A DNA stretch of 64,000 nt from Chlorella sorokiniana (taxonomy: Eukaryota > Chlorophyta > Trebouxiophyceae > Chlorellales > Chlorellaceae): contig CP084612.1 of NCBI GenBank assembly GCA_025917655.1, positions 1 through 64,000 of the forward strand, in the 5' to 3' direction. The position numbers and the translations under genes were made by a program. Each line of letters starts with the position of its first letter. The first letter of the stretch is position 1. Below, in pieces: positions 6,387-46,234 of this stretch. The notes below the pieces were generated by a model, which was not told the DNA's origin, ran no database searches, and saw nothing but the letters and a program-made list of their open reading frames with translations.

Positions 6387-9300
6387 TCACGGTCCCTCCT
6401 CAGGAAGGGGTGGATCAGCAAAGCGGACGCTGGTAAAGCGGGCAGTGGCCCCCGCAGCGCCGGTGGGCTGTCGACGCATGGTGCGCCCACGGTTGCCGCT
6501 AGGCAAGCGTGCACGCGAGTAGGTCGGCCCAAACGCGGCACCGGATGCCCCGTTCTCGTCCAATGTCGCCAGCTCATCATCCTCGGGCACAGCCTGGACC
6601 CGGAAGGTGCTGCCAGCGAGGCCGGTGGCGTGCGAGTGCTTGTTCGAGCTGGCGCCCGCGTAGGCTGCGGGGTCGGCGACACGGAAGGAGACGATGCTGG
6701 CCCGCCGATCGAGCCGTGCTGACATCTGTCCAGGTCTCCCGACTGCATCACCTCTTGCAGCTCTTCCACTACAGTCATTGGCTGCAACGCTGCAACCGTG
6801 TCCGAGGGCTCCAGTGCCTTGCGACGAGCAGCCTCCACGGCAGAGCTGATTTCTGGCGGTAGCACCTTGCCCACTGGGTTGGCTGCAATCAGAGGGACAA
6901 GAGGAAAGGTGGCTCACAAGAAACAGCAACTGCATGTCTGTGCAAATGCGGCTCGGGAGATACGAGTCTAACAAACACATCAAGGGTGCACCAGCAGACA
7001 GCTCGAGGGCTCCCCACACCTGGGATGCCTCCCAAATGGTCATGGCCGGCACCTCCTCGTTGGGCAGCACCATGGAGGCGGGCAGCACGCGAGAATGGTC
7101 GCCAAACACAGGGGCCGCCAGCGTCCGCGTGCGAGCTTGCACCCAAACATACTCCTCAGTGCTGCAGGGCAGCACAGGCGCCGCAGGTAAAGAGGAGGGC
7201 GCTTTGCAGCAGGCTGGGGTGCCAACACGTCACAGCCAAACGCATGCGCGGATGTTGGCATGACGCGCCTCCCAATGGCGCGCCACCCTAAACTGCAAGC
7301 CTCCCACATGCCGCGGCTCACGTGACGGGCACATAAAAGAGGCGTCCAGACTGGATGTAGTGTGTGGACATGACAGCGCCAGGCTCAATGATCAGGCCCT
7401 TGCCGCCATTGAACAGCGTCATTTCCTGCAGCCAGACCCATGGGTCAAGGCACGTGAGTGGGCAATCAGGGGGTGCGTGAAATACCAACCAGGGATGCAG
7501 GTGGACGACTGGCAGGCAAAGGTTCCATGCTCCTCCAAGGATGCAGCCCCCAGCCCCAGAAGCCCCTGCCGAACCATGATGTCAGGCACGCTAGCTGCAG
7601 CCGCAGGGTCGCTGTGGCTGCCCTGACCGCTGCCCGCCCACCTGAGACAGAGAGCCGAGAATGATGGATTCCGGAGCCACGCCCCAGCCGGACCAGCGCA
7701 TGGCCAAGTTGAAGGTGGGGGTGCCCTTGAAGGCATCAAACAGCATCTGGATCTTGCCTTCAACAAGGCCTGAAAGAGAAGGAGGCAAGGGCACAGTTGT
7801 GGGCTTGGGCCACGCTCTGTTGGCCAGCAAAGCTGTCTGGTATTGTGCGCATAAGGAAGGAGCTGGCTGGCCAGCAGAGAGCCTTGCATTGATGCATGTC
7901 ATACGCCAGAGCTGTTGGGCGCTGCATGTCAGGCAGAGCTTGACCGCTTACCTAGCATGCGAACGCGCAGGCTCTTGCCCGAGGCGGACTTTTTTCCAGA
8001 GCGCGCGGCCACGCCAAATGAACGTGTGCAGGTTGATCCAGACCACCAAGCAGCACAGGCCCACAGCGGCCAGAACGATGACAAGCGGGATGGTTATAGC
8101 AATAAGGGAACCAATGGCCCAAAACCTTTCCACCTGCATGTTGATCCCGCAGGAAACGGCAGACATCAGGCCAACGGCAGCTGAACAAAGTGTGGGCTGG
8201 AAATGCAGATTGTAGTTCTGGGACACTGATGCATGTGCCAGGGGTTTTGTAAAGGCAGGTGGCCTGTTGGCGGCAGCTAGATGCAGCAAAAACAAGCAGA
8301 AAAGATTACTTGAATGGGCGAGCGGAAAGCTCCAAGCAACGCACCTTGAGGAAACCCATGAAGGCAGCCAGCGCGACCGATGCAGGGGCCCAGCAGGCAG
8401 CGCCAGTGCCGGCATCCATGGCGGCGTCAGCATCACTACGCGAACCGCGGAGTGAATTGCTTTGAGCTTGTGCCACAGGCTGGAGGGAGGTGCAGACGGC
8501 GCAAAGATGTCGAAGTCCGCCACCCTGGCAGGGGGCGTCCTCTTTGCCGCCTGCCTCCAAGTCTTTGATTTCGCTGTCCTCGCTTTTCCCGGAATCAGAG
8601 TCCTCCTTCTCCGGGGTGGTGGTGGCGCCGCCGGGGTATAACAGGTCGCCCTGCAGATTGTGCTGCGGTGGCACAACACGCCCAGCTTGCACGCTCGTCT
8701 CGTTGCCCACAATGGAAGCAAACTGCAGGAGGGGGCAGTGGCATTATGGTTTTGCGCGTGAGCAGCAGGCAAACAAAGAATGCTGCCTGCGTTGCCCGTG
8801 ATAGTGTTGTGTGGTCGTTGGCCACACGATGCAGGCCGGTTACAGCCGGCATCATCACCGCCTAGCACAGCACGCACAGCGGGCACAGCATCCACATCCT
8901 CAAAAAACTCACCCCAACAGAGGAGCCTGGGAAGAAGGTGGTGTGGCCTGCAGCATGGGCAGCACCATGGCACAGGGGTGTTGGGCCATATTTTGGTGGA
9001 GCTGGGGCCAAACTTTAGCAGGCGTGGCATGAGGCATATTGTGCAGCAGCGTTTCGCTGCTGCTTGCTTCCAACAGCACTGCCTGCTTACCGAACGAGGC
9101 AAAGTCCTGCACTCTAATCTCTTGAATAACACCGTCCTCGTCCACCGCGTGGAACGCAGAGCTGCCACCCGTAACGGCAACGTTGCCCACGTCAACAGCA
9201 TCATATTCTGCAAGTCAAGATGGATGACAGAAACAAAGACCAGGCAACGCCGGGGGAGTCAGCAACAGATACATGGAGGCGGTGATGGCCTGGTAGGCAG

Positions 9301-12300
9301 CCAAATCAACAAGCCAAAGGGAGCATGGGGAAGCATGGCCCTGGTACGCATCACTTGCTCATAAACCGCAGCCAAGCCCACCGGTGATGCCGTCCACGTG
9401 AGAGTCGTAGCCGAGCTTGGCACCAAAGGCGCGCAGCAAGGAGTTGGCCACCAGGGTGGAGTGGAAGTATTGCTTGGACAGCTGCCACATGCCGCCGCGC
9501 TGAAGGTTCAGGAAGATGCGGTAGCGGAAAAGCAGCGACTGCGAGGAGGTCAGGCAACGCCCAGGAGACAGCCGGCCCAGCATCTGCAGCACAGCGTTGG
9601 GAACACAGGGCTCTGAGATTGCTAACACCCGCATGTGCAATGACCACACTGACAGAGGGGCGCAGAGATTCGACGCAGCTTTTGGATAGCTGCTCGTGGA
9701 GCTGCCATGCCCTGCTCCTGCTTGGAATTGCATCCAATACAGCATACGGAGTCCACCCAGGCAAGCGACAGCACCAGTATGCGTCAACGCTGGCCCCATA
9801 TCCCTCCCTCCTGCTCACCAGCCACTTCCAGACCAGGTTCATGATGAACTGTACAAACATGGTGGCGGGGGTGAGCACCAGGCCTGAAGCCAGCGTGCCG
9901 CTAATGGGCAGGAGAATGATCTTGAAGTAGAAGGTGGAACCGCGCACGGCAAAGCTCAGCCCCGCATACATCTGCGAGCAGGGAGACAGCCAGTACATGA
10001 ACAGCAATCGGGAGGGTGGCGCAAGTGTGGCGGCCACCTCCATGCTGAGCAAGGGGGACAGCTCAGGCTTTCAGGGCGACGTCCCTGCCGTCGCCTGTTC
10101 ACATGCAAAGCTGCAGGCCAGCACCTACAGCAGCAGTAACAACATGACACAACGCACCGTGGCAACAAAGTTTTCAGGTGAGATGACGGGGTTGAAGGTG
10201 GCGAAACTCGTCGGCGGCTCGGAGGAGGAGGCCAGGTTGTAGGTCCTGCGCATTACGGAAGGGGTTGAATATTCAGGGTGATACAAGCAAAGTTGGGCTG
10301 GCGTGATGCTTGAACAGAAGCTATGAATGTGCACACTGGGTGCGGATGTGTGAATTGACAACGACACAAATGCATGGCAGGGTAAGGCAGCAGGAAAACC
10401 TGATGCTTGAAGGCAACAAGAAAGAGGGGAATACAAGGATGGGGAATGGGGGCGGGGAGCAACTATGCAAGGAGGCCGCCAGGAGCTGCTCACCAGCACA
10501 CAACACAGATGGAGAGCGCTGCGCCTGGGATGTAGGAGAGCGTGTTTAGGATGGAACCAATGAGGGCAGTCCAGAAGCGCGTCCATGGCTTCATGTGGCG
10601 CTCTGCAAGCGCAGGAATTGGGATGGTAGCAAATGCGTCGGATTATGCAACTAGCAACAAACGCACACTTGCGCATCATGCCGATTGTGGCGTCACACAC
10701 AGCCATATCGACTGCAGCTGTGTTTTAGCAGGCATGGCGGCCAAGCTCATGACTCAGAGAAGGGGCCCCACGCAAAGGCGGTCAGCAGCTTACCAGCATA
10801 GAAGTGTGGGTAGAGCTTCCTCCCCTCCTCCAGCTCGAGCACACCCCGCAGATGGTTGGGCGCGGCGTAAGGGCGCAACAGCTTGTCGTGCGCCAGGCGC
10901 GAGCCGGCAGGCACCACCGACCGTCGACCCAGCACGCAGTTGTCGCCAATGACAGCGGTGGACAGGATGAGGCAGCCGGCTGCGAGGGGCGGCAGAGAGG
11001 GTGCAGAGTGAAGCTTGTTCCTCGCAAACACTAGCAGCGGTGGCAGCATGTGCACTGTCTGTGGTGGCACCATGTGCACTGTCTGCAGGGCAGCTTTCCC
11101 AACCCGCCAGCTAGGAAACACACAGCTGGAACGCGCACCGTTCTCGTCCACAAAACCGGGCGGCACAATGGTGGCGGCTGACACGAAGGCGTCCTCTGCC
11201 ACCAGCACGTTGTGTCCAATGGAAATGAGGTCCGGCTCATTTATGTTATTGGTGTCAATCACGCATCCCTGTCCGATGCGGGCGCCCAGCGACCGCAACC
11301 ACCAGTTCCAGACCTCCGTGCCACCAATGTGAGGGGTGAGATACCTGTGGGAGAGGAGGGCGAAGAAATGGTGTGGGCATTGCATTTTTACGCAGCAGCA
11401 TCATCGATGCAGCAGCATCGATGCAGGCAACAGCTCAGCAGGTCACCCCCCAAAGTGTTGCGACGAAGGCAGCTGAACAGATGCAAGAAGTAAATTTGGC
11501 CGGAACCGGAGGCCATGACGCACCACAGTACGCGGCGCTGGAGGGCGTGGTAGGCGGTCCACCTGCAGGCGTAACGCAACAGGTGAGGAGTGTTGTGAAG
11601 GATGTATGTGATATGCTGTGTTGTCAAGAACGGCAGGCAGCAGATTGAGGTTGCAGACATGATTGAGGGTGCAACGGCTGCACCCCAGAACCTGTGGCCA
11701 GGCCAACAGCACGTCCCACCTGAGGTACGTCCACCCATACAGCGGGTAAACGCCCGGGCGCATGCGACGTGGGAACAGGATCCACTTGATGACAGGCAGC
11801 CCCACAAACATGACGGTGAGAAGGCCAAGGTAGATGGCGGGGCCGATGAGGAAGTTCCAGAAGCCGTTCTTGGGGTGCGGCTCGGACTGTATGAGCGCCA
11901 TGAGCGACACAATGGTCGCGGTGACCAGTGGCGCAACCAGGGTGGTGACCAGCGAGAAAAGCACGGAGAGGAACATGTACAGCGGGTATGGCAGGCGTGT
12001 GCGTGCCACCGCGTGCGGCATGTGCTGCCCCAGCTCCAGGTCGGTGGCGTTCATGCGTGCTGCCAGCGCATTCTCCACAGCCAGCGTCCCAAACACGCGC
12101 TTTGTGGCGCCGCCCGCAAGCCTACGCGTGGGGCCGGCCCGCAGCTCGCTCTGGCTGCCGCCGGAAGCCAGCGCCAAAGCCACCTTGCGGATGGTTCGGT
12201 TGGTCAAAATGAGGTTGCCGGGCAGCTCGTCCAGCTGCATAGGAACAGGGCAGGTGTGCGGAAACAGGGCTTGGTGCATGAGGCATGCACGCACATGGAC
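6387..12300 (-). other. NRPS C-terminal membrane and hexapeptide region (Pls-like terminal domain)
   Basis: Replaces the usual thioesterase. Hydrophobic segments are seen in [19 protein letters not shown] and [19 protein letters not shown] (11800-11990), [17 protein letters not shown] (about 10560), [19 protein letters not shown] (about 9890), and [20 protein letters not shown] (about 8070), so about six membrane spans. Between them are left-handed beta-helix stretches: [15 protein letters not shown] and [18 protein letters not shown] (11180-11290), [19 protein letters not shown] (10900-10960), and more degenerate ones near 9150 and 8700. This order of membrane spans and acetyltransferase-like hexapeptide segments matches the NRPS terminal domain of epsilon-poly-lysine synthetases (NRPS_term_dom). 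It should tether the enzyme to a membrane and may act in chain transfer or release. The Ser/Arg-rich end (6387-6750) is probably cytosolic. Confidence 0.75.
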
Positions 12301-15300
12301 TACAAAGCAAAGAAGACATGACGCTTTGTGCTTGGTTCATGCACCGCAATGTACTTGATGTGCGAGCTTGCCTGCATGTACTTGCGGATACGGGCGTTGA
12401 TGATGCCAGCCTTGATGGAGGAGCCTGCAGCATTGGATGTGAGCTCAAGTTAAAGGGGGCACACTGAAGCCAGCAAACTTGCGCAGAAGTGGCAGCACAC
12501 GGCAGGCCAGCAGCCTGCTACACAAGATGGCGCATACCTCCAATCTCAAAGTAGTCTGCATCAATGGAGATGGGCTCAGTGATGCCCAGCACGTCCATCC
12601 AGATGGTCTGGATGACCTGCACAGAGAAGCGGAAACGGTACATATTTGTAAGCTTCCTCAAAAGCACACGCTCACAAGGGAGAATCGCCCAGCACAAGTG
12701 TCCGCCAGCAGGGGACCTTGTCACAATTCATGCGAGGCACGCCCACCTGCTCTGTGGGATTGGTCGGCGCCACATACTCCTCTGACGAAGCGATGCCAAA
12801 CACTGGTGGCGGCAGCGCGCGTGTCGCCACCTTTCCGTTGGGCAGCAGGGGGAAGGATTCCATGGCCACCACCACAGAAGGCACCATGGCAGGGACCAGC
12901 AGAGTGCGGCAGTGGTCCAAGACGTCAGCGGGAGAGACGTCGCCGGGGGTGACATAGCCCACCAGGCGCTTCTGGCCGGCATCCACATCAAGCACGGCGA
13001 CGGCCACCGCCTGGTCGACGCCTGCAAGCAACGCTTGGGAAAAGCGGCAGTGAATAATAAACAGGGCAAGCAAGCACATGCGCACCGGGCGCATGCCAAA
13101 CAACCCTGTTGCGCAGTGTGGATAACAGATGTGCGGCGAGAGCCGAGTGCAGACAAACACACCAGACAATCCACCCACCTGGTGCGGTGCCCAGAGCAGT
13201 CTCCACCTCGCCAAGCTCCATGCGCACACCGTTGATCTTGATTTGGTTGTCGATGCGGCCCAAGCAATCAATTTCGCCGTTTGCCTTGAAGCGGCACAGA
13301 TCCCCTGCAAGTTTTGCAGCTTGTCAGCAGATGTCTATAAATCAGGTGCGAAGATTGACTCAAAAAGCAACAAATAAAAGCAGTAGATGCAACAGGGCAA
13401 GTGCATCGGCGCAAATGGGAGCCGGCTTATTAGTAAGTCAATACCAGCTCCCCTGCCTACCTGTGCGGTATGCAAGCTTGAAGTAACTGCGCAACTGCTC
13501 TGGCAGGAGTGACGACACGTCATCATAGCAGGGGTTGGGAATGAACTTGTCTGCCGTGAGGTCTGGGCGCCCCATGTAGCCACGCGCCAGGCGCGGGCCA
13601 CTCAGCAGCAGCTCTCCCGGCACCCCGACAGGCACCGGCTGCATGAACCTGTCCACGATGTAGCAGTGCATGTTGGCCTCCGGGTAGCCGATGCTCATGT
13701 GCTTCATGCCCGCCCAGCATTTGAGGTTGGTGGCCATGACGGTTGCCTCGGTGGGGCCTGCAAAACAACACAATGCATTAAAAGGCTCTGCACCTTTCGA
13801 GAGTGAAGCAATTAAAATGCCAAGCAGCTGCCAGCATGCCACTTGGCTGCATGACCGAGACCGCATCAGTAGCATCCCGTCCTTGTTTCCAAGCTCACCG
13901 TACGCATTCACCACGGTAACACCCTTAGGCACATTCCTGTAGATCAGTTCAACCAGCTCAAGCGGCATCGCCTCGCCCGAGAAGCAAGCCGTCTTCAGGG
14001 AAGAGCAGTTCTGGGCGGCCGGGCACTTGTAGTACTCCAGGCCCAGCGCAGGCACTGCATCAACGACAAAAGGCAGGAGAAAGTTCAACGCCAGGCCAAA
14101 GCCGATGGCCGTGCAGCGACAAGGCGACATTATGATTTCGGAAACCATGCAGCACTGAAATTGTGCCTGCCACTGCACAACACACCTGTGTTGAAGAAAG
14201 TAACCTTGTGCTCATCCAGCAGGTCAGCAATGTACTCAGGGTCCACGTGCCCGCCTGGCCTTGCAATCACCAGCTGCGCCCCAATAACCAGCGGCGTCCA
14301 CATCTGCAGCAAGGTGGGAGCCAGCAGGTCATGAGGGCTGCTTGATCAACTATGTATTGAGTTCGAAGCAAATTGATGCACCAAGCTTTCTCTTCGAATC
14401 TGCATGCACTGGCTAATGCCCAAAACCTTGTCACCTGCATGATGAAGGGGTCGAAGTTGATGGTGACGGAGAGGAGGAACACGGCGTCGGGCTCGATCTC
14501 ATAGTAGTCCAGGTTGTAGCTGCAGGGGCCAAAGCAGGAAGCAGTGCAAACATGCTTGAATTAGTTTGGTTGGGTATAGAAGATGTCGAGGAGTCAACAG
14601 GGTCTACAGCTGATCACTTGTGAAATTACAGGCACGGCTCAAGGCTAGCACACCAGAGGAAATCGATGAGCGCAGTGTGATCGATCATGACGCCCTTGGG
14701 CCTTCCGGTGGATCCTGAGGTGAAGATGACGTAAGCCAGCGCATCCTGCTCCACCAGCTGGGCCCCAAGGTTGGTATCTGGGCCGTTGCCAAAGTCGAAA
14801 TCCTCACACACCAGCACCTGCATCGCAAAGCAAATGAACGCTAGCCAGTTCAGACAGGTGAACGACAGATGACAACTGCTCTCTGTCCCATCAGGTGGCA
14901 CGTACATAAGATGTCCAAACCTCACCTTCCAAGCGGCAGCCTCTCCACCCAGCTGCTGCGCACGCTCGGCGTGCGCGCGCTGAGTCACCAGCAGCTGCCT
15001 TGGAGTCCTCCATGTAGACCACCAGGCGATCATCTGGGTACTCGGGATCCAGGGGCACAAAGCATCCTCCGGCCTGCAGTGGAAGGCTTGCAATGCAGTT
15101 TATAACAGACAAAGATGCCAAGCTGAGATTTGACAACACAATCAAGGCCAACTGGAAGAAGGAACAATAAAACAAAGGGATGCTGAGACCATGTGCAGCC
15201 CACCTTCATGGCCGCCAGCATGGCGATGACCAGCTCAAAGGAGCGGTCCAGCATGACGCCAACGGCGACATCCCGCCCAACGCCCGCAGCGCGCAGCCAA

Positions 15301-36300: not shown

Positions 36301-39300
36301 GTCGGGCAGTAGGCGACAACCAAGCGATGGGTGCATTGGAGCCTTGAAGTTGCAAGCTGGAACAAGAGCAGGCTCACCCTGTGCGCTGCCGAGGGCGGCC
36401 TCAACCTCGCCCAGCTCGATGCGCACGCCGTTGACCTTGACCTGCCGATCGATGCGCCCCAGGAAGTCCAGGTTGCCGTCGGGCGCCACCGCACCAAGTC
36501 ACCTGCAGCGGTAGGGCCCCAAACAGCAGCCAAGTCAGGCCAAGCGCTGGGCCACAAAAAGACAGCAGGCGCACGCATGCTCGCCGCCAGTAGAACGAAG
36601 CGGGCTCAGATCGCATGTCTTCTGTTTACGGCAGGTCCCAGGCATTACACATCACGCTGCACTGCTGTCGAGCCCACCGGTGCGGTACGCCATCCCGTAG
36701 TGCTGCTTCATCCCCGCCGGGATGCTGCTCGCCAGCAGCTCCAGGCACGGGTTGGGCACAAACTTGTCGGCCGTGAGGTCCTCCCTGCCCACATAGCCGC
36801 CCGCCAGGCGGGGCCCGCTCAGCAGCAGCTCGCCGGGCACGCCGGGCGGCACAGGGCGCAGCGAGCGGTCGACGATGTAGGTGTGGGCGTTGGTGTTGGG
36901 GCGGCCCACGTGGATGCCATCGCCCACATTGTCCTCTGTGAAGACCCCCATCGTGATCAGGATGGTGGCCTCTGTGGGGCCGTAAACGTTGTGGGAGGGC
37001 AGCGCCTGGGGCGTCTGCAGGCAGGGCAGAGGGACAAACGACGGACGACAGGAATCAGTCGAGGCACGGCGGCGGGGCAGGAGCTCCTCACGTACACACC
37101 CCCATACTGCCTCTGAAAGCAGCGGTGACCAGAGGGCGAGCGGCAGCCGGGGTCTCCACGCCTGCTCCGCAGGCTGCATATGATGGCAACCATTTGCAGC
37201 GACTTGCAGCAGACAGCCAGCGAGACTCACCGCGTTCTGGACCACGCCCACCAGCTCCGGCGGCAGCGGCTCCCCGCCAAACAGGTAGGCCTTCAGCTTG
37301 TCGCAGCGAGACGCGTGCCTGGTGGGGAGCACCAGCATGTTCAGCGCTCCATGGCAGCATCAGTGAGGCAGGCAGGTGGGCGGCCAAGCAGCAATACCAG
37401 CATGGAGATGGTGGGCACGCCGCAGGAGCAGCCATGCAGGGAAGGTGAGTGAGCAAGCGGGTCCATGAATGCGGCTGCAGCCGCAACAAGCAGCAAGCAC
37501 CGATTCTTGAAGTGCTCCCAGCCAAAGGTGGGCACCGAGGGCAGGAAGGAGACGCCATGGTCGGCCACCAGCCCCATGATGTAGTCGGCAGACGACTGGC
37601 CACCCGGGCGCGGGATGACCAGGCGCCCACCCACAAACAGCGGCACAAAGGTGCAGGCGACGTGCGGGTCGAACTGGACTGCAGAGGATGTAGGGAGACA
37701 GCACAGACGATCGTCAGGAGCGAGCCCGCTGGCAGCAGATAGGCTGGCACGCGTGCCGTTGCAAGCAAACATGGCTTCACCGATGCTGCGGTTGCCGGTG
37801 CTGCCCACAAGCAAGAAAGGAACAGGCAGGCATGCAGGCAGCGAGCAAGCAAGCTGTGACAGCAGGTGGCAGCGCAGCGCACTGGAGATGAGCAGCAGGG
37901 AGGCGTCTGTGGGCCCAAGCTCCCAAGTGTCACGCGCCCAGCTGCGGGACAGGGGAGGCGGGGAGCGGCAGGGCGCTGATCAAAGCCAGGTGCAGGCAGC
38001 AATGTGGGCACCGCTCGATTTGAGAGGGGAGTGCCCAGCGATGAGCACAAGCGCGCAGCAGCCATGGCCAGCACCTGGGCCCTGGCCCAACTGGCGTTCC
38101 CCGCCCCAGGCTGGCGCAGCCTCACCAGAGGAAGTCTGCCAGGGCCCTGTGTGAGATGACGACGCCCTTGGGGCGGCCAGTGGAGCCGGAGGTGAACTCG
38201 ATGTAGGCGGCGTCCTCTGGGAGGCGCCCGCCACCACGGGCGGCGCAGTCGACCCATTGGTGGAGGGGCGGTCCCAGAAGGAGTCCAACAGAAGAGTCTG
38301 CAGGGCGGCGGGGGCGTTGGTTGAGAATGGGTTGAGAGTGTGGCAAGTGGCCACAGCTGGCCAAAATTCAGGCGATGCAGAAGGCAGAGCGGGGGGGCAT
38401 CAGCGCAGCGCAGCATGGTGCCACACAGACGCAGGCAGCATGTGCCAATGCAGCCTGAGCATCACTGGACTCAGTGTCCACTCACCTTCCACGTGGCGGC
38501 CTCCCCGCCCAGCTGGGCAGCGCGATCAGCGTGAGCCTGCTGGGTGAGCAGCACCGCTGCCTTGGAGTCCTCCATGTAGCCAGCAAGACGCTCATCGGGG
38601 TACTCGGGGTCAAGGGGCACGTAGCAGCCTCCGGCCTGCAGCAGCACAAAGGCATGAGACGATGGGAGTAAGGGTGCAGCAAGACCAGCCCGAACACAAG
38701 CTTCACACCACGTCACACGGCCGCAGCCCCACCTTCATGGCCGCCAGCATGGCGATGACCAGCTCAAAGGAGCGGTCCAGCATCAGGCCCACGGGCGTGC
38801 CGCGCCCAACGCCCATCCCAGCCAGCGTGTGCGCCAGCAGGTTGGCGCGGCGCTCCACCTCGCCGTAGTTCAGCGTCTCCCCCTCGAAGATGAGGCAGGG
38901 GCGCTGGGGCTGCGTGCGGCATGCTGCTGGAAAGCCAGGTGCACCGCAGGCGCTTGCAGGTAGTCCTCGCGGTAAGGAGCGGCGGAAAGGGTTGCCAGAG
39001 AGGCGCGGGACGTGCCTCCCAGCAGCGGCAGCGCTGCCAGCGGGGTGGCGGGTGCCGCGGCGGCAGCCTCACACAGCGCGGCCATGGCTGCAGCCATGGC
39101 CTCCATCGTAGGCGCTGCCAGCTTGTCACTGTTGTACACCAGACGGCCCTGCAAGAGGTGTTAGGCATGCAACTGAGATTCATGGCCCAACACTTGACGC
39201 AAAGCAGGGCGCAGGGCAAGAGGGGGCACGTTGCCGTGCTGGACTTTGTAAGCAGCACGTGCACCGTGACCGCCAGCCTGCAGCAACCTTCGATTACGGC

Positions 39301-42300
39301 AAGCAAAGCTGCAGCTGCCTGCCCACCTTGACCTCCCCCTCCGGGGTGGACAGCAGCTCAAAGGTGGCGTCAAACTGAGAGGCGCCCAGGTCAATGTCCA
39401 GGATCGGCTCAACCTGCCACGAGAGGTGGGGCAAGAGAACAAATCGATTAGTAAAAATTAACGACAAGAAGGACAGAAAGGAAGAGGCTTGTGCAGGGGG
39501 CAGGCAGAATGCTGGGCAGATGGCGGCGCTGCAGCAAGCACACACCTCGAGGCCATCAAAGGGCGCCACCTGCAGCAGGCGGTAGTCCTGGTGCACGAGG
39601 TAGACCTGCGGAATGAGCAGCAGAGCAAATCGTTCAAGGGCCAGCACAATGGGTAAGCGAACGGACACCAGCATGAGCACACGGAACGAAAGAGCTGCCG
39701 CTAGTGCAGCGCTCGGCTGCCAATGACCGCCACACGATGCCTGCAAGCCACGCCAGCTGAGGCCAGACGTGGCAGCCAGCCCAGGGCTCAGCAGCAGCCC
39801 CCAGCTCACCTGGAAGGGCTGCGAGCCGCGGGCGCCGCCCGCGTGGCCACCTGCTGGAAGGGCACGCCGCCGTGCGAGGTGGCGGCCTGCACCTCGGCCT
39901 TGGCCGCCGCCACCAGCTCCTCAAAGGGCTGCGCCGGGTCGGCGGCCATGCGCAGCACCAGGGTGTTGACATAGTAGCCGACCTGGCGCAGCAGGGGCGC
40001 CGGGCCTGCCTCACGTCCCGAAAACGGAATGCCGAGCGTCACGTCGTCCTGATCGGCATAGCGCATGAGCAGCGCTGACACGGCTGCCGCCAGCACGCTG
40101 AACAGCGTGGTTCCAGAGCGGCCGGCCAGCGCAGACAGGCCTGCCACCACCTCCTTTGGCAGGAAGAGCGGCACGGAGGCGCCGGGGCCCGCGGCTGCGG
40201 CGCTGCCGCTCGCTCCCGCCTTGCGGTACGGCAGGGCCAGGTGGCTCGGCGCGCCCAGCAGGCGGCCGCGCCAGTAGTCCAGGTCGGCATCCCAGGCACC
40301 CTGCTCCGCCTGCTGGTGCTGCCAGGTCGCGTAGGCAGCGTAGGTGGCAGGCACGGGCGGCAGTGACGGCTCCTCCCCGCGCACAAAAGCAGAGTAGGCA
40401 GCCGCAAGGTCGTTCATCAGCACGCGCACTGCAAGCAGCAGGGGCAGAGGGGCGGCAGGGATTTCAGAGGCAAGCGGCGGAGGCGCGAGAGGCGGCGATG
40501 AGGCAGCAGCCGAAACGGAAGCCAGCTGAGGCCTCGCAGTAAGCTGCACAGCAACGCCCCCTGCAGCTGCTGTTCTTCGGTGTGACGTGCAAGCTACGGG
40601 GGCTTGAAGCAACGTGCATCCCCCAGCAATGCCCTGCCCACCTGACCAGCCGTCGGAGATGGCGTGGTGTGTGGTGACGACCAGGACGTTGCGCTGGGGG
40701 CTCTCCAGCAGCAGCAGGCGCAGCAGGGGGCCGTCCAGCAGGCTGAAGGGCCGCGTGGCCTCCGCCTCGATCGCCGCTGCCACTGCGGCGTCGCCGCCGT
40801 CTGGCAGCGGCGCGCGCACCAGGCGCGGCGCAAAGGCGCCGGGAGATGGGGGCGCGGGGGCATAGACGACGGCGGGGGCGCCGTCGCGCACGGTGAAGTG
40901 GGCGCGCAGAGCGTCGTGGCGGGCGGCCAGGGCATCCAGTGCCTTGAGCAGGGCCACCAGCTGCAGCTGCCCCCTCAAATCCAGGGCAAAGGGGATGTTG
41001 AGGGAGGCACCAGCACCCTTGGAGTCCAGCACAAACATCTGGGCCTGGTTGAACGACGCCGGCTGCGCCTCGCCGGCAGCTGCCGCCGCCGCAGCGGCCG
41101 CCGCAACCGCCGCTGCATTGGCGCTCGCCGCGGCGCCCGCCCCTCCCTCGGCGAGTTTTGCCGTCTCGTCGACCATCTGCTGCAGCGTGAGCCCCTCGAA
41201 CCAGAGGGTGGGGTCCAGCGCCACGCCGTACCGCTCCTGCACCTCGCCCACAATTTGCAGCGCCTGAAGCGAGCCGACCCCCAGCTCGGCCAGCGGGGCG
41301 TCCGGGGCCAGCTGGCTCAGCGGGATGCCGGTGGCGCCGCTGATGATGTCTGCCAGCTCGGCACGCATCCGGTCGGCGGGGCTGGCATCGGATGGCAGCA
41401 GGTTGCGCGCAGAAGGCGCGCGCGCAGCCGCCGCCTCCTCGGCCGTCGGCGGCTGCCACTCGGCGCCCATTCCGGCAATCTCTGCAAGCAAGCAAGCGAC
41501 GCGGCGCGGGTGGGCACGGGTGTGTCAATCGCAGCGTGACCAGCTGCGGGCGCGCACTTATGCCTGTGACAGCTGTGCAGGGCGACGTATCGCAGGTGGG
41601 CAAGCTGGCAGGGACCCAAAGAGTCCAGGCATGGAGCTGGCACGACGCGGTCGCCACGGGGCAGCCTGCACCCAAACCCACCCGCAGCCTGCTTGGCGTC
41701 CGCGGCGTCAAACGCGCCGCCGGGTATGATCTCCAGCTTGCCGCCGCTCAGCAGCAGGTCCTTGCACGTGGAGCGTCGAATCTTACCTGAGGTCTGCGGG
41801 AAGAGCAGGGGAGGAGGCGGCGCAGCCCTTAGTAGATGGACAAGAGTGTGCGCAAAGTTGGGTCCGCAGGGGTGGTGGCTGGCTGACTCGCACAGCCACG
41901 AGAAAATCAGGGCTGAAGCGGGAGCGCCGGCGAGGCGGCAAGGCGCCACCCTGCATGCACCCCGGTGTGCTGTACTCCTGCTGCGCCCTCCCTGCCGCAG
42001 AACAGGATCCTGCCCACCGTCTTGGGGATGGTGCGGGCCTTCACAATCGCGATGCGCGCGACAGAGAGGCCGTGCTCCGCCGTCACCGCCTGGCGAATGC
42101 CCGCAAACAGGGAGTTGAGCGTCGCCGCGTCCAGCTTGGCGGAGCGCACTTCGGCCACGATGCCGATCTGGTCTGGTGCCGTCGCGGCGGCGGCCCGGCA
42201 TCACCATTCCCCAGCCCGGTCTGCAGCTGGAAAGCGGCCACGCAGCCGGGCGGATCTCCTTGCTGACCGCCTCAACCGTCACCTCCACATCCTGCGGCGG

Positions 42301-45300
42301 TGTGAAAGTGGGGGGACACGATTGTGAGTAGGAGCAGCTCATGCAAAGCGGACACGCCATGTGTGCGCACATCAAGGAGGCAGCCCAGGCTGACGGTGTG
42401 CTGGGCCTGGCCGATCGGCTCCCCTGCCCGAGGCGCTGAAGTGGCACTCGGCTGCCATTGACAGGCAGCCAGTCCCAGCCTGCTGGCGCCGCAGGAACGC
42501 TGGTCGCTGCCTAGCAAGGCTGCCCCCAACGCCCAAGCGGCCAGCATGCCAGCGACAGCCCACCTGGGGGTACAGGTTGCGGCCGCCGACGATGATGACG
42601 TCCTTCAGGCGGCCCGTGATGTACAGCAGGCCATCCTTGATGTACGCCAGGTCACTGCGGTGAGACGCGGAAAGGATAATCAGGAGCGAATGCCAAACAT
42701 GAAGGGCGCAGCCGCGGCACGAAGCGCACGCACGCCGAAACCAGCGGGTCGGCGCCGGCCTCCAGCCGTGCAGGCCAGCCGTGCAGGCACGGTGGGGCAG
42801 CGCATGGGCAGGTGTCGCTGCCCAGGCGATCCGGTGTCGCTCCTGACGGCGCGCGCGCAGGCGCAGCCGCAGCAGCGGCAGCAGCGCCCGGCGCGTCTCA
42901 CCCCGTGCGCAAGTACTGGCGGCCCTGGTACATGTTCTGGAAGGTGTCCTTGGTGACGTCGGGCCGGGCCCCTGCGGGGAGCAGCAGCGCAGAGCAAGGC
43001 AGGTTGGCGTGCTTGCAACTTGAGCTACGCAGTGGGGAGTGCTGCAGGCGGCAAGGCGTGACTTGTAGCACAGCCCGGCACCGTTGCAGCAGCGGCAGCA
43101 TACTCACAGTAGCCGGCGGCATTGGAGGGCGAACTCAGCCAGACCTCGCCTGCGGCAGGCAGGGTGGGCGGCGGCTGAACAGACGAGTATGGCGCGGGCA
43201 GGGCACGGGAGGGTGTGTGGCCCATGCAGGAAACAGGCTGCGCTGGCCAGCACCCCTTGCCAGCCTCCGGAAGGCACCGCCCTGCGCGCAGCACCCACAT
43301 CTGGCAGGCTGACTGTGAGCACCACCTCTTGCTGCCAACCCAACCCACCTGTGGCTCCGGGCGGCACGGGGGAGGGGGCGCACCCTCCTCGTCACCACCG
43401 AAGCTCATCAGCTGGAGGTCAATGTCCGAGTTGGACCCCACCACAGCGCATGCCACAAAGCCGGTGTCCGGGTCAATCACTGTCGGCTGGTGCGGGCGGG
43501 CGATGGTGCCGGCATACACCACGTGCTCTGCCAGGCCGTAGGCGGGGCACATGGCGGTGGTCGAGAAGCCCACCGGCCCAAACGTCGCCTGGAAGTCGGC
43601 CAGGGTGGACGGGCGGATGGGCTCCGCGGCGTTGCAGGCAAACAGGAGGGAGGAGAGGTCGAGGTGGGGGCGGCGCTCGGCGGGCATGCGCTCCCAGGCC
43701 AGCACGCAGCGGGTGAAGGCGAAGTTGGGGGCCGCCGTGATCTCGCCGCGGTACTTGGTGATGGTGCGCAGCCAGACCAGGGGGTCCTTGAGGAAGGCGA
43801 AGGGGGACATGACCACAGAGTTGTAGCCCACGTACCTGCGGCCAGAGGAGGAAACAAGGGAGACCGCGGGCGCACGCAGGGTGGGTGGATGGGGGTGCGT
43901 AGATGAAGTGGCAGAGGCGGGACATCATTGCATGGCATAGCATTGCGGGGCCCAAACGGCGAGACAAGCAGGGGCTGCTGCCCAGGCGCAGGCCTGCAGC
44001 AGGAGGAGGAAAGAGCAGCAACGGCACCCGCACTGCCGCATGCAATGGCAGGCCACACTCACAGGGGCAGCAACATCATCACAATAAGGCCAAAATCTGC
44101 AGGGGAGTGGGCAAGAAAGCGGGGCATCAACAGTGGCAGAAACCAAGTGGCCCATAACAATGAGGCAAGCCATCAGCAACCGCAGGCGCTGCAGCATGCC
44201 AGCCGCACGCCGCAGAAGCAGGTCCACAGCGGCGGGTTCATAGCAACGGTAACAGGCAGGCGGCCTTCGGCGGTAATACTGCACCGTGGTACTGCGGCAT
44301 CCAGGAGATCATGGTGACCCCGGGCGCTGCGGCAGGTGTATGTAGATGGAGGCGAGGTTGTGAACGATGTTGCCGTGCGTCACCATCACGCCCTTGGGGT
44401 CGCCTGCGGGGGACATGAAAGTGGAGGGCGGTGAGAAGAGCGTTCCGCGGACCCCCGCACTGCTTGCCTGGCCAAGAGAGTGTGAAAATGGTAAATGCGC
44501 AAACAGCAGCCAGGCAGCGCTAATGCGCAAACAGCAGCCAGGCAGCGCTGTGCCCATCACTTCCACAGCTGTGCTGGCTGAGCGCCCTAATCGACTTCCG
44601 CTGCTTCTGTGACAGCAGCCAGAATCAATGCCGCTGCTGCGGCGGCAACGGCACACAATGACATCGCCCCCACCCACCGGTGGAGCCGGAGGTGAACTGC
44701 AGGAAGGCCACGGCCTCCGGGCGGACAGTGCAGGGCTTCATGCGCCGTCCCTGCAAGAAGGTGGACAGGCACAACGGAAGCCACACGCCTACAGTCAGTG
44801 CGGGCTTGATTGCAAGCTACAGCAGCCCTGCTGCGCCAAGCACCTAAAGGTGCAGCGGGGCATGTGAGGCGCGCTTCGAAAGGCAGGGAAATCCACCTTT
44901 CCCGTTTTGAAGAGGTTATCCGGAACCGCCTTCCAGTTCACGCTGCCTGCCCCACCGCCGCCGCCAGTGAAGAAGCTCTTCCATTTCAGGCCTGCATAAT
45001 GGGGTGGGGCGTGGGCGGGTGTTTGGGGTAGGGGTGGAGGTGAGGGTGGGGGAGGTCACTCCCAGTTTGCACAAGCGCACACAATACGCCAGACGGGAGC
45101 ACAGCGGCTGCTCATTTTGAATGAAAGGCACAGCAAGCAGCAGTAGCTGGACGCCGCATATACGCATGCAATGTGCAAGCTGCAGGCCCCATAAAAGAGC
45201 GAACAGGAGTTACTGTTATCAGGCTGCAGAGACAGCGCTTTCGATCCCCAAATCGCGTGATGCAGCAAGCTCCAAAGGCTGCGTGTCACGAGCCCTACCT

Positions 45301-46234
45301 GTCACAACAAGATGATAGTCGCCAGAAGTGAGAGCAATGGAGGCGCCCGATGTCTTGGCTATGAGTGCCAGCCGCGCAGAGTCCTTCTTGAACGTTGCTG
45401 GGCTTGGAGGGTACACCGGCACTGCAGGTTGGGAGGTGAAGAGGGCACCGTCAGAGAGCAGCCTGCTGTTAGCTGCCGAAGCCAACACCAAGGTGATGCT
45501 TGGGTCCATCGGCTCGAAGCGGCCGCTACCAGCCGCGTCGACAGATCGCTGAAAGTTTCCTACTCCCTGGCTGACACCTTGCAGCGGAAGCGGCAAACCG
45601 ACACGCACACCAGTTGAGGCGGCAGGCGCAGCACATGACGTTCCGCCTGGAGCAGCACCCACCAGCGATGATGCCTGTGGCCAAGCAGGAGAGGAAGGCC
45701 ACCAGGAATTTGAGGCCTGGCGGGAAGCTGAGAACGACGCGGTCGCCGGGCTTCAGGCGAAGCGTCTTTGTCAGCCACTCGTTCACGGCCGCAACCTGGG
45801 ACTCGAGCTGCAGTGCGGGCGAGACCATGGCGGCGGGGTGAGCCCCGCGCAGATTGGCAGATGGGCTGCGTGCGAGCCAACGCCGGCAACGACGGCGGAT
45901 ATAATTCGCTGCTGGCTTGATAAGGAGCCGCTGTAGGGTGCCTATGCTTGAGCAAAACAGGGTAGGTTTCCGGAGGATAGCGATGGCAAGATACCGGGGC
46001 GAGCTGGTCACAAGTGCGACAACTGTATCCAGCTTAGAGGCAGTGTAATCGTGCCCCGCCCAAAACCGAGCACACCTCGCCATAGGTGAGAGCGGCCACC
46101 TCGTTGCCGCCATCATCCAGCCACCGCAGGGCCACAGCGGCGGGCTGTCTCTCAGACAGCGCTCGGAACGCCTCCAAGAGCATGGTGCTGCTGCTGGGTC
46201 CCGATGACGGAGCCATGTCTGCAGCCTCGGGCAC
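6387..46234 (-). CDS. Giant FAAL-loaded five-module non-ribosomal peptide synthetase, intron-rich
   Basis: Multi-domain enzyme predicted to activate a fatty acid and five amino acids and join them into an N-acylated pentapeptide. Gene order is FAAL, ACP, then C-A-T five times, then a membrane and hexapeptide C-terminal region. All five A domains show [11 protein letters not shown]; all C domains show HHxxxD; the T domains show GGTSL or GGSSI. The chosen start, 46234, opens [12 protein letters not shown] and runs into a FAAL-type LTYGE motif. The stop is TGA at 6387-6389, after PLPEEGP. Length is roughly 7,000-7,500 residues over scores of exons. I treat it as one gene because domains follow in a strict order, neighbouring domains are joined by introns inside conserved motifs, and no internal start, promoter or poly(A) region is apparent. 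Many one-base losses in C/G runs interrupt the frame and are probably consensus errors. Alternatively it could be two or more adjacent genes. Confidence 0.85.
12370..12800 (-). other. NRPS thiolation domain 5
   Basis: NPTEQ then [27 protein letters not shown], with an intron inside the second glycine codon, then [15 protein letters not shown]. Spliced, the loop reads FEIGGSSIKAG, serine codon 12417-12419. Both the loop sequence and the intron position (before the serine rather than after GGTSL) differ from T1-T4, so this domain has a different history. It feeds the C-terminal membrane region instead of a condensation domain. Confidence 0.85.
12830..15450 (-). other. NRPS adenylation domain 5
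   Basis: Motifs: [20 protein letters not shown] (about 15330), [11 protein letters not shown] (about 15220), [17 protein letters not shown] (about 15055), [19 protein letters not shown] (14680-14730), [11 protein letters not shown] (about 14450), [14 protein letters not shown] (about 14250), [19 protein letters not shown] (about 13960), NAYG, an intron, [14 protein letters not shown] (about 13730), [19 protein letters not shown] (about 13560), [19 protein letters not shown] (about 13280) and LPNGKV (about 12835). Near 14995 the frame appears to miss two bases relative to A2 (GCAGCTGCTGG against GCAGCGGTGCTGG). This is not in a long homopolymer and might be real. Confidence 0.9.
14985..14999 (-). 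other. Apparent 2-base loss inside A5
   Basis: Between [10 protein letters not shown] and [14 protein letters not shown] the frame changes. The paralogous A2 sequence carries two extra bases at this point. Unlike other frame breaks in the gene it is not a C/G-run shortening. If real, it would truncate the synthetase within module 5; otherwise it is an assembly slip. Confidence 0.5.
15460..17850 (-). other. NRPS condensation domain 5
   Basis: [19 protein letters not shown] near 17800; catalytic [20 protein letters not shown] (17240-17290), with DA instead of [22 protein letters not shown] (about 17120); [14 protein letters not shown] (about 16920); [20 protein letters not shown] (about 16710); [17 protein letters not shown] (about 16480); [14 protein letters not shown] (about 15990); [20 protein letters not shown] (about 15600). 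Very similar to C4, consistent with duplication of that domain. A one-base loss lies near 17057. Confidence 0.86.
17920..18510 (-). other. NRPS thiolation domain 4
   Basis: [16 protein letters not shown], an intron, then [19 protein letters not shown] and GGTSLL with serine codon near 18196. The intron again follows the attachment loop. The next exon continues [18 protein letters not shown] (about 18030). Confidence 0.86.
18520..21100 (-). other. NRPS adenylation domain 4
   Basis: Motifs: [18 protein letters not shown] (about 21020), [19 protein letters not shown] (about 20900), [17 protein letters not shown] (about 20690), [19 protein letters not shown] (20240-20290), [12 protein letters not shown] (about 20140), [14 protein letters not shown] (about 19710), NVYG split by an intron from PTECTL (about 19520), [20 protein letters not shown] (about 19360), [24 protein letters not shown] (about 18970) and [14 protein letters not shown] (about 18520). 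C-run losses near 19452 and 19870 interrupt the reading frame. Confidence 0.9.
21130..23470 (-). other. NRPS condensation domain 4
   Basis: [19 protein letters not shown] near 23440; catalytic [16 protein letters not shown] (22830-22870); [12 protein letters not shown] (about 22715); [14 protein letters not shown] (about 22500); [20 protein letters not shown] (about 22290); [13 protein letters not shown] (about 22105); [10 protein letters not shown] (about 21775); VMFQYLPDS (about 21550); [20 protein letters not shown] (about 21260). It is closely related to C5. One-base losses are likely near 21191 and 22605 and one near 23315. Confidence 0.86.
21866..21912. repeat. 21-base tandem duplication in an NRPS intron
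   Basis: Two adjacent copies of CGAAGGCAGGGCATGCCACC(A) in an intron of condensation domain 4. Short minisatellite, no function evident. Confidence 0.8.
23540..24160 (-). other. NRPS thiolation domain 3
   Basis: [12 protein letters not shown], an intron, [21 protein letters not shown] and GGTSLQ with serine codon near 23850. The intron after GGTSLQ matches those of T1, T2 and T4. The next exon reads [20 protein letters not shown] (about 23620), completing the helical bundle. Confidence 0.87.
24110..27060 (-). other. NRPS adenylation domain 3
   Basis: Motifs: PMTYSEV (about 27000), [11 protein letters not shown] (about 26700), [17 protein letters not shown] (about 26450), [18 protein letters not shown] (26195-26245), [10 protein letters not shown] (about 25935), IGGENV (about 25560), NSYG then [13 protein letters not shown] (about 25270), [18 protein letters not shown] (about 25110), FRLAYRTG (about 24880), [26 protein letters not shown] (about 24680) and [14 protein letters not shown] (about 24175). 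It is the most divergent A domain of the five. Two losses of one C from CGCCCCGAC lie near 24737 and 25100. Confidence 0.9.
27060..29400 (-). other. NRPS condensation domain 3
   Basis: Starts [19 protein letters not shown] near 29370. The catalytic block is [11 protein letters not shown] (28720-28750), with DA where most C domains have DG. Other motifs are [13 protein letters not shown] (about 28490), [14 protein letters not shown] (about 28190), [17 protein letters not shown] (about 27910), [11 protein letters not shown] (about 27850), [10 protein letters not shown] (about 27680) and [18 protein letters not shown] (about 27260). Four probable one-base losses in C/G runs lie near 27883, 28458, 28895 and 28915. 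Confidence 0.84.
29560..29950 (-). other. NRPS thiolation domain 2
   Basis: [20 protein letters not shown] and [19 protein letters not shown] lead to GGTSLQ, serine codon near 29780. An intron splits the domain right after GGTSLQ; the next exon continues [14 protein letters not shown] near 29585. It carries the growing chain to condensation domain 3. Confidence 0.86.
29960..32640 (-). other. NRPS adenylation domain 2
   Basis: Motifs: [14 protein letters not shown] (about 32530), [11 protein letters not shown] (about 32390), [17 protein letters not shown] (about 32240), [19 protein letters not shown] (31835-31890), [11 protein letters not shown] (about 31590), [19 protein letters not shown] (about 31170), NAYG (about 31120) then [14 protein letters not shown] after an intron (about 30930), [19 protein letters not shown] (about 30770), [23 protein letters not shown] (about 30540), [10 protein letters not shown] and LPNGKV (about 30075). 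It is nearly identical to A5 over a long central block. Apparent one-base losses lie near 31445 and 32505. Confidence 0.9.
32770..34960 (-). other. NRPS condensation domain 2
   Basis: Exon at 34500-34950 carries a long N-terminal lobe and MHHAIMDGW near 34500-34525. Next exons hold [19 protein letters not shown] (about 34270), [21 protein letters not shown]-like [11 protein letters not shown] and MGYFLNVRP (about 33720-33800), then [12 protein letters not shown] (about 33410) and a C-terminal part ending in [12 protein letters not shown] near 32800. Its C-terminal lobe ([20 protein letters not shown]) is unlike those of C3-C5, so it belongs to a different C-domain lineage from its neighbours. 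Confidence 0.84.
35130..35930 (-). other. NRPS thiolation domain 1
   Basis: Starts with [13 protein letters not shown], continues after an intron with [23 protein letters not shown]; the phosphopantetheine serine codon is near 35533. An intron follows directly after GGTSML, and the next exon opens with [14 protein letters not shown], the expected third helix, then an [15 protein letters not shown] stretch near 35220. The GGTS variant replaces the common GGHS/GGDS. Confidence 0.85.
35960..38930 (-). other. NRPS adenylation domain 1
   Basis: Amino-acid activating domain of module 1. Motifs in order: [15 protein letters not shown] (about 38860), [27 protein letters not shown] (about 38610), [12 protein letters not shown] (38155-38200), FDPH (about 37665), [11 protein letters not shown] (about 37260), NVYGPTEAT (about 36975), [17 protein letters not shown] (about 36810), YRTGG (about 36690), GDLVRWR (about 36495), [19 protein letters not shown] (about 36430) and LPNGKID (about 35970). 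Unlike A2-A5, its NVYGPTEAT is not split by an intron. One base seems lost near 36480 and one near 36070. The substrate cannot be named. Confidence 0.9.
38960..41080 (-). other. NRPS condensation domain 1 (lipo-initiation)
   Basis: Begins [19 protein letters not shown], typical of the C-domain N terminus. The catalytic motif [10 protein letters not shown] lies near 40645-40670. Later motifs are [28 protein letters not shown] and [11 protein letters not shown] (about 39960-40050), and a downstream exon with FDATFELL (about 39365). It is positioned to join the fatty acyl group on the ACP to the amino acid of module 1. It is the least similar to the other four C domains, which fits an acyl-accepting starter role. 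Confidence 0.85.
41140..41491 (-). other. NRPS acyl carrier protein after FAAL
   Basis: Encoded in one exon that runs on into condensation domain 1. The helix-one region [16 protein letters not shown] and the attachment loop [11 protein letters not shown] are clear; the phosphopantetheine serine is the S of GVGSL (codon near 41270). Most ACPs have DSL here, so the aspartate before the serine is replaced by glycine. Helix 3 ends with [12 protein letters not shown]. It would carry the acyl group from the FAAL to the first condensation domain. An Ala-rich linker of about 25 residues follows. Confidence 0.88.
44492..44548. repeat. 28-29-base tandem duplication in a FAAL intron
   Basis: Two head-to-tail copies of a unit starting TAAATGCGCAAACAGCAGCC and ending CAGGCAGCGC, in the intron between the FTSGSTG exon and the VMVTHGN exon. 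No function evident. Confidence 0.85.
45000..45056 (+). other. G-run-rich tract in a FAAL intron
   Basis: Dense runs of three to five G on the plus strand (GGGGTGGGG, GTTTGGGGTAGGGG, GAGGGTGGGGG). They could fold as a G-quadruplex on the strand that is template for the NRPS gene. Pattern seen directly; structure is inferred. Confidence 0.5.

Follow-up and report, generated by a model that had tools for sequence, protein, structure and literature searches.

A telomere-adjacent nuclear gene of Chlorella sorokiniana predicted to encode a FAAL-primed, five-module peptide synthetase with a Pls/PosA-related terminal domain

Locus and gene model

The DNA analysed here is the first 64,000 nucleotides of contig CP084612.1 of Chlorella sorokiniana (the window), which forms the left end of that contig (C10) in an assembly of 38,804,885 bases and 15 contigs. 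On its minus strand, from 46216 to 6387, lies a predicted nonribosomal peptide synthetase (NRPS) gene composed of a loader resembling fatty acyl-AMP ligases (FAAL), a carrier, five condensation-adenylation-carrier (C-A-T) modules and a terminal domain. The features are listed below in window coordinates.

1–309, no strand: telomere repeat CCCTAAA, filling the whole interval
41066–46216, minus strand: loader, FAAL-like ligase plus carrier with motif GVGSLQAL near 41281 (PF00501 2e-46, PF00550 7e-13)
35186–41065, minus strand: module 1, C-A-T; HHxxxD codon at 40669; pocket code DPAPLGVIL (PF00668 3e-63)
29401–35185, minus strand: module 2, C-A-T; HHxxxD at 34522; pocket code DPMNISAVM (PF00668 4e-80)
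23481–29400, minus strand: module 3, C-A-T; HHxxxD at 28745; pocket code DALFGGSAL, in the paralogue DATAGGSVL (PF00668 1e-42)
17860–23480, minus strand: module 4, C-A-T; HHxxxD at 22864; pocket code DPRYASVLS (PF00668 3e-54)
12160–17859, minus strand: module 5, C-A-T; HHxxxD at 17282; pocket code DPMNCSAVM; last carrier motif near 12553 (PF00668 5e-53)
6387–12159, minus strand: terminal domain related to the Pls/PosA NRPS terminal domain (TIGR02353, hhalign), with hydrophobic and hexapeptide-repeat stretches, an invariant His codon at 7362 and the stop codon at 6389–6387

In the subtelomere between the telomere and the synthetase gene, one tandem unit occurs twice (1252–1291 and 4085–4124).

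Exons on the minus strand were modelled from codon-wise conservation between the window and a paralogous copy on contig C11, together with splice-site scores. The model built from this pair alone (unguided) has 134 exons and 6,289 amino acids (aa), and the model guided by a C. vulgaris protein has 124 exons and 6,803 aa. The 123 introns predicted by the guided model comprise 104 GT-AG and 19 GC-AG introns, and 119 of the 123 donors are kept as GT or GC in the paralogue. The share of GC donors (19/123) is high, part of which may reflect the model sidestepping frame breaks; more generally, some predicted introns may be the model's way round such breaks. Position 6387 is the final base of a stop codon (6389–6387) in the frame of the last conserved exon, which is most likely the 3′ end of the gene; the last six bases of the guided model, placed at 5802–5797, were taken as wrong and this stop was preferred. 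Candidate start codons are the ATGs at 46216 and 46183. A first-pass annotation, made from the letters alone, had called the gene telomere-adjacent and intron-rich, and both descriptions agree with the repeats and predicted introns given above. Its 3′ boundary of 6387 coincides with this stop, and its 5′ boundary of 46234 falls slightly upstream of both candidate ATGs.

No flanking biosynthetic cluster was found among 20 long flanking open frames, none of which had a Pfam match, and Rfam gave no match at gathering scores.

Loader and elongation modules

FAAL and FAAL-NRPS models took the top four NCBIfam places for the loader, all under their cut-offs, with PRK05850 at 254.6 bits, FAAL21 at 222.9 and PRK12476 at 220.6; most coenzyme A (CoA) ligase models reached at most 116 bits, and PRK07768, named as a CoA ligase, came fifth with 215.9 (best 25 of 105 matches). 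The N-terminal ligase is closer to FAALs than to CoA ligases by these profile scores; it lies below the curated FAAL cut-off (254.6 against 775 bits) and is therefore called FAAL-like. A six-frame PF00550 match at 41168–41359 places a carrier directly after it.

All five modules matched PF00501 (E values from 4e-71 to 3e-53). The HHxxxD motif is kept in all five condensation domains, the Gly after the motif being Ala in modules 3 and 5, and an NGK motif is found in every module. In the window model the PF00550 score is above the Pfam cut-off in modules 2 to 5; the module 1 carrier reaches 20.6 bits against a cut-off of 20.8, and its counterpart in the C. vulgaris orthologue 39.4 bits. Pocket codes were read by the ten-position numbering, with a trailing Lys supplied from the NGK motif, and an attempt to predict amino acids from them was abandoned. 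None of the seven protein pieces scanned with Pfam contained a thioesterase, a reductase or an additional PF00668 region that might be an epimerase, and none of the 53 PF00109 (ketosynthase) matches in the assembly falls on C10. Elsewhere in the genome, the only phosphopantetheinyl-transferase-type matches among those listed are at C1:4,084,918 and C6:1,921,982.

The first-pass annotation had proposed a FAAL-acyl carrier protein-(C-A-T)x5 synthetase in a nuclear green-algal gene, and this architecture is borne out by the Pfam order of the spliced model and by an orthologue from Chlorella vulgaris. The Pfam check that it had suggested recovered Condensation, AMP-binding and PP-binding in the expected order, with the module 1 carrier marginal.

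Terminal domain

The last ~840 residues matched TIGR02353 ("Pls/PosA family non-ribosomal peptide synthetase") by hmmscan with E values of 1.4e-29 for the window and 6.6e-35 for the orthologue. A domain-length search (~460–1,470 aa) returned 25 proteins, 22 of them of 1,277–1,398 aa. One of the 25, P0002, is a 994-aa metagenome protein on a 3101-base contig; it consists of the end of an adenylation domain, a carrier and a terminal domain, and this whole terminal domain is 46% identical to the algal one. From the other 24 proteins, 19 were picked for a profile (P0009, P0013, P0015, P0016 and P0020 were left out); all 19 have an adenylation-carrier-terminal layout, and the named ones are bacterial. 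When a profile of the window and C. vulgaris sequences was compared with this 19-protein profile by hhalign, they aligned over 603 columns with 99.85% probability (E 1.4e-30), and a 14-sequence alignment contains 19 invariant columns, including one His in the third repeat (14/14). By sequence, the terminal domain is homologous to the Pls/PosA (TIGR02353) terminal domain.

Hydropathy windows marked five distinct segments in both the window copy and the orthologue, a crude measure that also flagged 14 stretches outside the domain. For the terminal domain, sequence searches of the PDB yielded nothing beyond weak hits to hexapeptide repeats (E 0.02 and 0.099). For comparison, the portion of the source drawn on here (PMC10522769) gives the PosA terminal domain a length of ~730 residues and six transmembrane helices arranged as three pairs; a predicted model of it also shows three beta-helices. 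A literature search for TIGR02353 found no paper.

Among 1,383 scored proteins of ~2,540–8,080 aa, the only one sharing the terminal region was the C. vulgaris protein D9Q98_010372 (7250 aa). We also surveyed 1,478 bacterial genomes, sampled evenly across the phyla to which five anchor genomes belong. TIGR02353 places above the cut-off numbered 27 in 396 genomes, 26 in 398, 0 in 193, 2 in 292 and 5 in 199, at least 60 in all 1,478, these counts being lower bounds because scoring was confined to the best few candidates of each genome. The longest frame holding such a terminal domain has 1565 aa (60/60 places ≤1565). The search threshold was 1e-60 for the first two sets (396 and 398 genomes), which weak algal-like relatives would escape, and 1e-12 and 1e-15 for the others. 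Full novelty of the fusion is challenged by one of 31 weak places in the 193-genome set: it sits in a frame of 2144 aa that takes up a whole contig of 6,434 bases. Because of this frame we rejected the idea that bacteria never fuse the terminal domain to a condensation domain. The frame (L095:3-6434, from the Pyxidicoccus phylum) combines a condensation domain, a flavin amine oxidase, a carrier below the cut-off and a partial Pls-type terminal domain. An adenylation-motif scan of bacterial contigs gave 80 related loci, 72 with a condensation match and 4 with a terminal domain, those 4 having no condensation match.

A second copy and an orthologue

A six-frame PF00668 search of the whole 38.8 Mb assembly at E ≤ 0.001 yielded 21 matches in two places only (38/38 candidates scored), with five regions in the window and five in C11:2,051,501-2,076,071. 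Positions 6592 to 46239 of the window align collinearly with C11:2,046,401 to ~2,085,922. The C11 copy lies ~9.4 kb from the end of its contig (2,095,291 bases), which is again telomere repeat, and beyond telomere repeats no other match to the window was found in the C11 flanks compared (~10.4 and 9.4 kb). The C. vulgaris protein D9Q98_010372, annotated as a "hypothetical protein", is collinear with the model, with 84.2% identity over 6,256 residues (unguided) or 82.5% over 6,720 (guided). The existence of one deposited collinear protein of 7250 aa argues for a single gene, that protein being itself a prediction.

The two copies differ by dN = 0.026 and dS = 0.203 over 6,778 aligned codons, a dN/dS ratio of 0.127 that is biased down since the model picks codons partly by that same conservation. 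By part, dN/dS ranges from 0.058 (module 2) to 0.218 (module 3), with 0.10 for the terminal domain. Synonymous divergence is 0.10 in module 1 and climbs to 0.54 at the terminal domain, a gradient that suggests gene conversion over part of the gene.

The pocket codes of modules 1, 2, 4 and 5 are identical between the copies (0/36 differences). At module 3 the window and C. vulgaris agree at 8/9 positions, and the C11 copy differs from the window at 3/9, which could change the residue chosen there. Selection for change in the module 3 pocket of the paralogue was considered but is not supported: ~1.2 differences are expected from 60-residue windows that are 83–90% identical, and three or more would arise about one time in ten (hand calculation). 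At module 5 the orthologue and the window differ at 2/9 positions.

History of the modules

When the modules were aligned and the predicted introns placed on them, the guided model gave 46 intron column-and-phase pairs shared between modules against 2.0 ± 1.4 (maximum 8) under a null matched for phase and flanking bases (2,000 draws each), and the unguided model gave 70 against 2.9 ± 1.7 (maximum 12). Some of the predicted introns may be false, but false ones would not be expected to coincide between modules. In trees with 150 other domains each, the ten algal domains (five from C. vulgaris, five from the window) form one clade, with support of 0.965 for condensation and 1.0 for adenylation domains. 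The tree sample was taken from the best 120 relatives of the loader and module 1, the adenylation pool also having seven Pls-type proteins, and may miss a closer bacterial group; those 120 relatives are bacterial where named, with 29–36% identity. By path length, the nearest bacterial domain is closer to condensation domains C1 and C2 than the other algal modules are.

Shared intron positions and a single clade argue that the line grew inside an intron-bearing gene, and module duplication within such a gene is the simplest reading of these sequences. We propose that the entire gene was subsequently duplicated from one chromosome end to another; a smaller ancestor may have come from bacteria by transfer. 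Module duplication is also reported for algal polyketide synthases (PKSs) in the part of a 2015 survey used here (PMC4661987).

Proposed mechanism and alternative explanations

We consider it probable that a single nuclear gene occupies the locus and encodes a membrane-anchored lipopeptide synthetase of roughly 0.7–0.8 megadaltons, in which the terminal domain would transfer an acyl-pentapeptide. In the proposed mechanism, the FAAL would adenylate a free fatty acid and load it onto the first carrier, and the five condensation domains would add five amino acids picked by the five adenylation domains, residues 2 and 5 of the peptide probably being alike. The lipopentapeptide on the last carrier would then be passed to the Pls/PosA-like terminal domain at the membrane, and this domain would transfer it to an amine or hydroxyl acceptor, replacing release by a thioesterase. 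We infer the substrates, the product, the release chemistry and the membrane site alike from sequence. The early steps follow well-known family behaviour, and the terminal transfer, proposed by homology to a polymerising domain, is the weakest link. Only tentatively, and with more doubt than confidence, do we extend this to a new release logic as a whole, namely a fatty-acid-primed five-module line with Pls/PosA-type membrane transfer, built by duplicating intron-bearing modules and copied between chromosome ends, with one copy changing the third residue.

Several observations weigh against the proposed synthetase. Its TIGR02353 scores are 103 bits for the window and 120.6 for the orthologue against a curated cut-off of 423.1, pairwise matches to bacterial proteins span only 11–33% of the terminal domain, and the C. 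vulgaris protein has 530 residues without a match. The exon borders were set by a self-built model that chooses coding sequence via the paralogue, and this lowers both the stop count and dN/dS. In the guided model, exons hold 35 pair-alignment gaps of non-triplet length (unguided, 19). Each of the 35 was compared with the C. vulgaris protein, taking 13 or more of 20 residues as read-through, and only the window read through at 19 sites, only the paralogue at 8, both at 1 and neither at 7. As assembled, the frame of the window copy is accordingly broken at no fewer than 8 sites and that of the paralogue at no fewer than 19. Single-base gaps number 32 in 20,406 exonic bases, and a control, a tandem PKS duplicate on contig C8, has only 3 gap openings in 10,326 columns. 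The statement that both copies have open frames was not borne out by the gap and read-through checks and was dropped.

These breaks are a ground for supposing that one or both copies are recently decayed pseudogenes and that the C. vulgaris gene is the working one, to which may be added the far fewer gaps in the C8 duplicate and the greater divergence of module 3 and the gene ends. The breaks are almost all single-base losses, however (8/8 in the window copy, 16/19 in the paralogue), and single-base losses are typical of long-read errors. The 6,272 aligned codons of the paralogue include no nonsense codon, where neutrality of its 1,130 substitutions would predict 27. Comparing each copy with C. 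vulgaris without a gene model (5,196 and 5,000 of 7,250 residues covered) likewise revealed none. Neutral substitutions are thereby limited to about 124 (95%), and at the intronic rate of 0.039 single-base gaps per substitution some 5 gaps are allowed, not 27. The C8 control may conceal errors common to both of its copies through reads mixing between near-identical repeats. We favour assembly errors over decay for most of the single-base breaks, and regard the pseudogene explanation as unlikely.

Two other explanations concern the end of the protein. The terminal domain might be a membrane anchor or structural remnant, the lipopentapeptide leaving by hydrolysis or through a separate thioesterase; the sub-cut-off TIGR02353 score, spread over two or three separate stretches, and the short bacterial pairwise matches speak for it. 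The 603-column alignment with a catalytic family, the 19 residues, including the His, invariant in 14 sequences and a dN/dS of 0.10 are harder to reconcile with it, and we hold it to be less likely than not. It is quite unlikely, in our judgement, that the domain acts iteratively as in Pls, giving a lipid-capped polyamide and no pentapeptide. That possibility draws on homology to domains that polymerise lysine and ornithine (for PosA, in the portion used, PMC10522769), but the domain is divergent and the module 5 pocket code, by our own reading, has no extra acidic residue of the kind expected for a diamino acid. As to origin, transfer of a complete five-module bacterial gene with later intron gain would accommodate the bacterial affiliation of the best named relatives and the path lengths of C1 and C2; against it, coincidences of intron column and phase between modules greatly exceed chance, even when splice context is matched, and the modules form one clade in both trees, so that we think it improbable. 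Bacterial contamination or a chimeric contig was also considered, FAAL-NRPSs being common in bacteria, but many predicted introns with conserved splice sites, the plant-type telomere that this contig carries, the further copy on a different telomere-ended contig and the C. vulgaris orthologue rule it out for practical purposes.

Returning to the membrane-anchored synthetase, the first-pass annotation had called its NRPS logic complete, which stands for the domain order and for HHxxxD (5/5) and fails for the frame as assembled, broken at 8 of 35 tested sites in the window; the terminal domain at ~12159–6387 had been overlooked. It had predicted an N-acyl pentapeptide. Since the gene runs past the fifth carrier and ends in a Pls/PosA-related domain, a plain N-acyl pentapeptide is one candidate product among several. 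That the alga itself is the producer, also predicted, would fit the introns and the telomere linkage, with frames broken in places as assembled.

Relation to known systems

The orthologue D9Q98_010372 is collinear at 82–84% identity and differs in the module 5 pocket code. The puwainaphycin synthetase of Cylindrospermum, as far as the portion of PMC4219810 used here describes it, shares loading by a FAAL and carrier followed by NRPS elongation, but its FAAL and carrier are separate proteins and it has a PKS part and a thioesterase end, whereas the algal gene is a single intron-bearing nuclear gene with no PKS part, no thioesterase seen and a Pls/PosA-like terminal domain. With Pls/PosA synthetases (for PosA, in the text drawn on, PMC10522769) it has in common a terminal domain after a carrier, the invariant His, and hydrophobic and hexapeptide-repeat stretches. 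Known members of that family have one adenylation-carrier module and the terminal domain; the algal gene places a loader and five C-A-T modules ahead, and its score is below the cut-off. The ligase-started giant type I PKS of the Chlamydomonas type (PMC7073580, in part) is likewise a giant algal gene with an acyl-ligase start, and a PKS locus of this type also occurs on C1 of the present genome; the synthetase differs from it in that C10 has no ketosynthase match and in that it would build with amino acids.

In the sections of the 2015 survey consulted (PMC4661987), NRPSs were recorded in 7/32 algal species, those of Chlorella variabilis and Coccomyxa having a single condensation domain apiece and the largest then known having three; algal NRPSs are likewise few in the consulted part of PMC7073580, where C. 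variabilis has one and Parachlorella kessleri two and their modules are not described. The available text of the C. vulgaris genome paper discusses a PKS/fatty acid synthase gene and does not contain "non-ribosomal", "nonribosomal" or "peptide synthetase" (PMC6972661). In the excerpt used of a study of Hydra with foreign Chlorella (PMC6019070), "non-ribosomal peptide synthetase" is an entry among the annotated up-regulated genes, apparently another gene. The loader-to-terminus architecture was not found described in the literature searched (titles and abstract beginnings, with subscription papers mostly outside reach). The first-pass description of it as undescribed thus holds for the architecture in that literature, but chlorophyte NRPSs are on record and an orthologous protein had been deposited unnamed.

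Multimodular NRPSs are thought to be rare in green algae, and the two copies with a C. vulgaris orthologue supply a concrete candidate gene for an alga-made lipopeptide: judging from these sequences, the alga may make its own. The genus Chlorella is grown for food. The terminal domain would represent a testable new mode of chain release, and the shared introns indicate how an assembly line can grow in a eukaryotic nucleus.

Other PKS loci

PKS loci were also seen elsewhere in the assembly. A giant type I PKS locus at C1:4,155,410-4,216,355 opens with an acyl-ligase match, and ketosynthase and carrier matches are numerous in it. At C8:520,081-540,725, within a PKS locus, lies the 10.3 kb tandem duplicate used as the control above, whose copies are near-identical (8 mismatches and the 3 gap openings in 10,326 columns), which points to a recent doubling of a module block. 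A further PKS locus lies at C2:36,234-71,617, less than 72 kb from the contig start.

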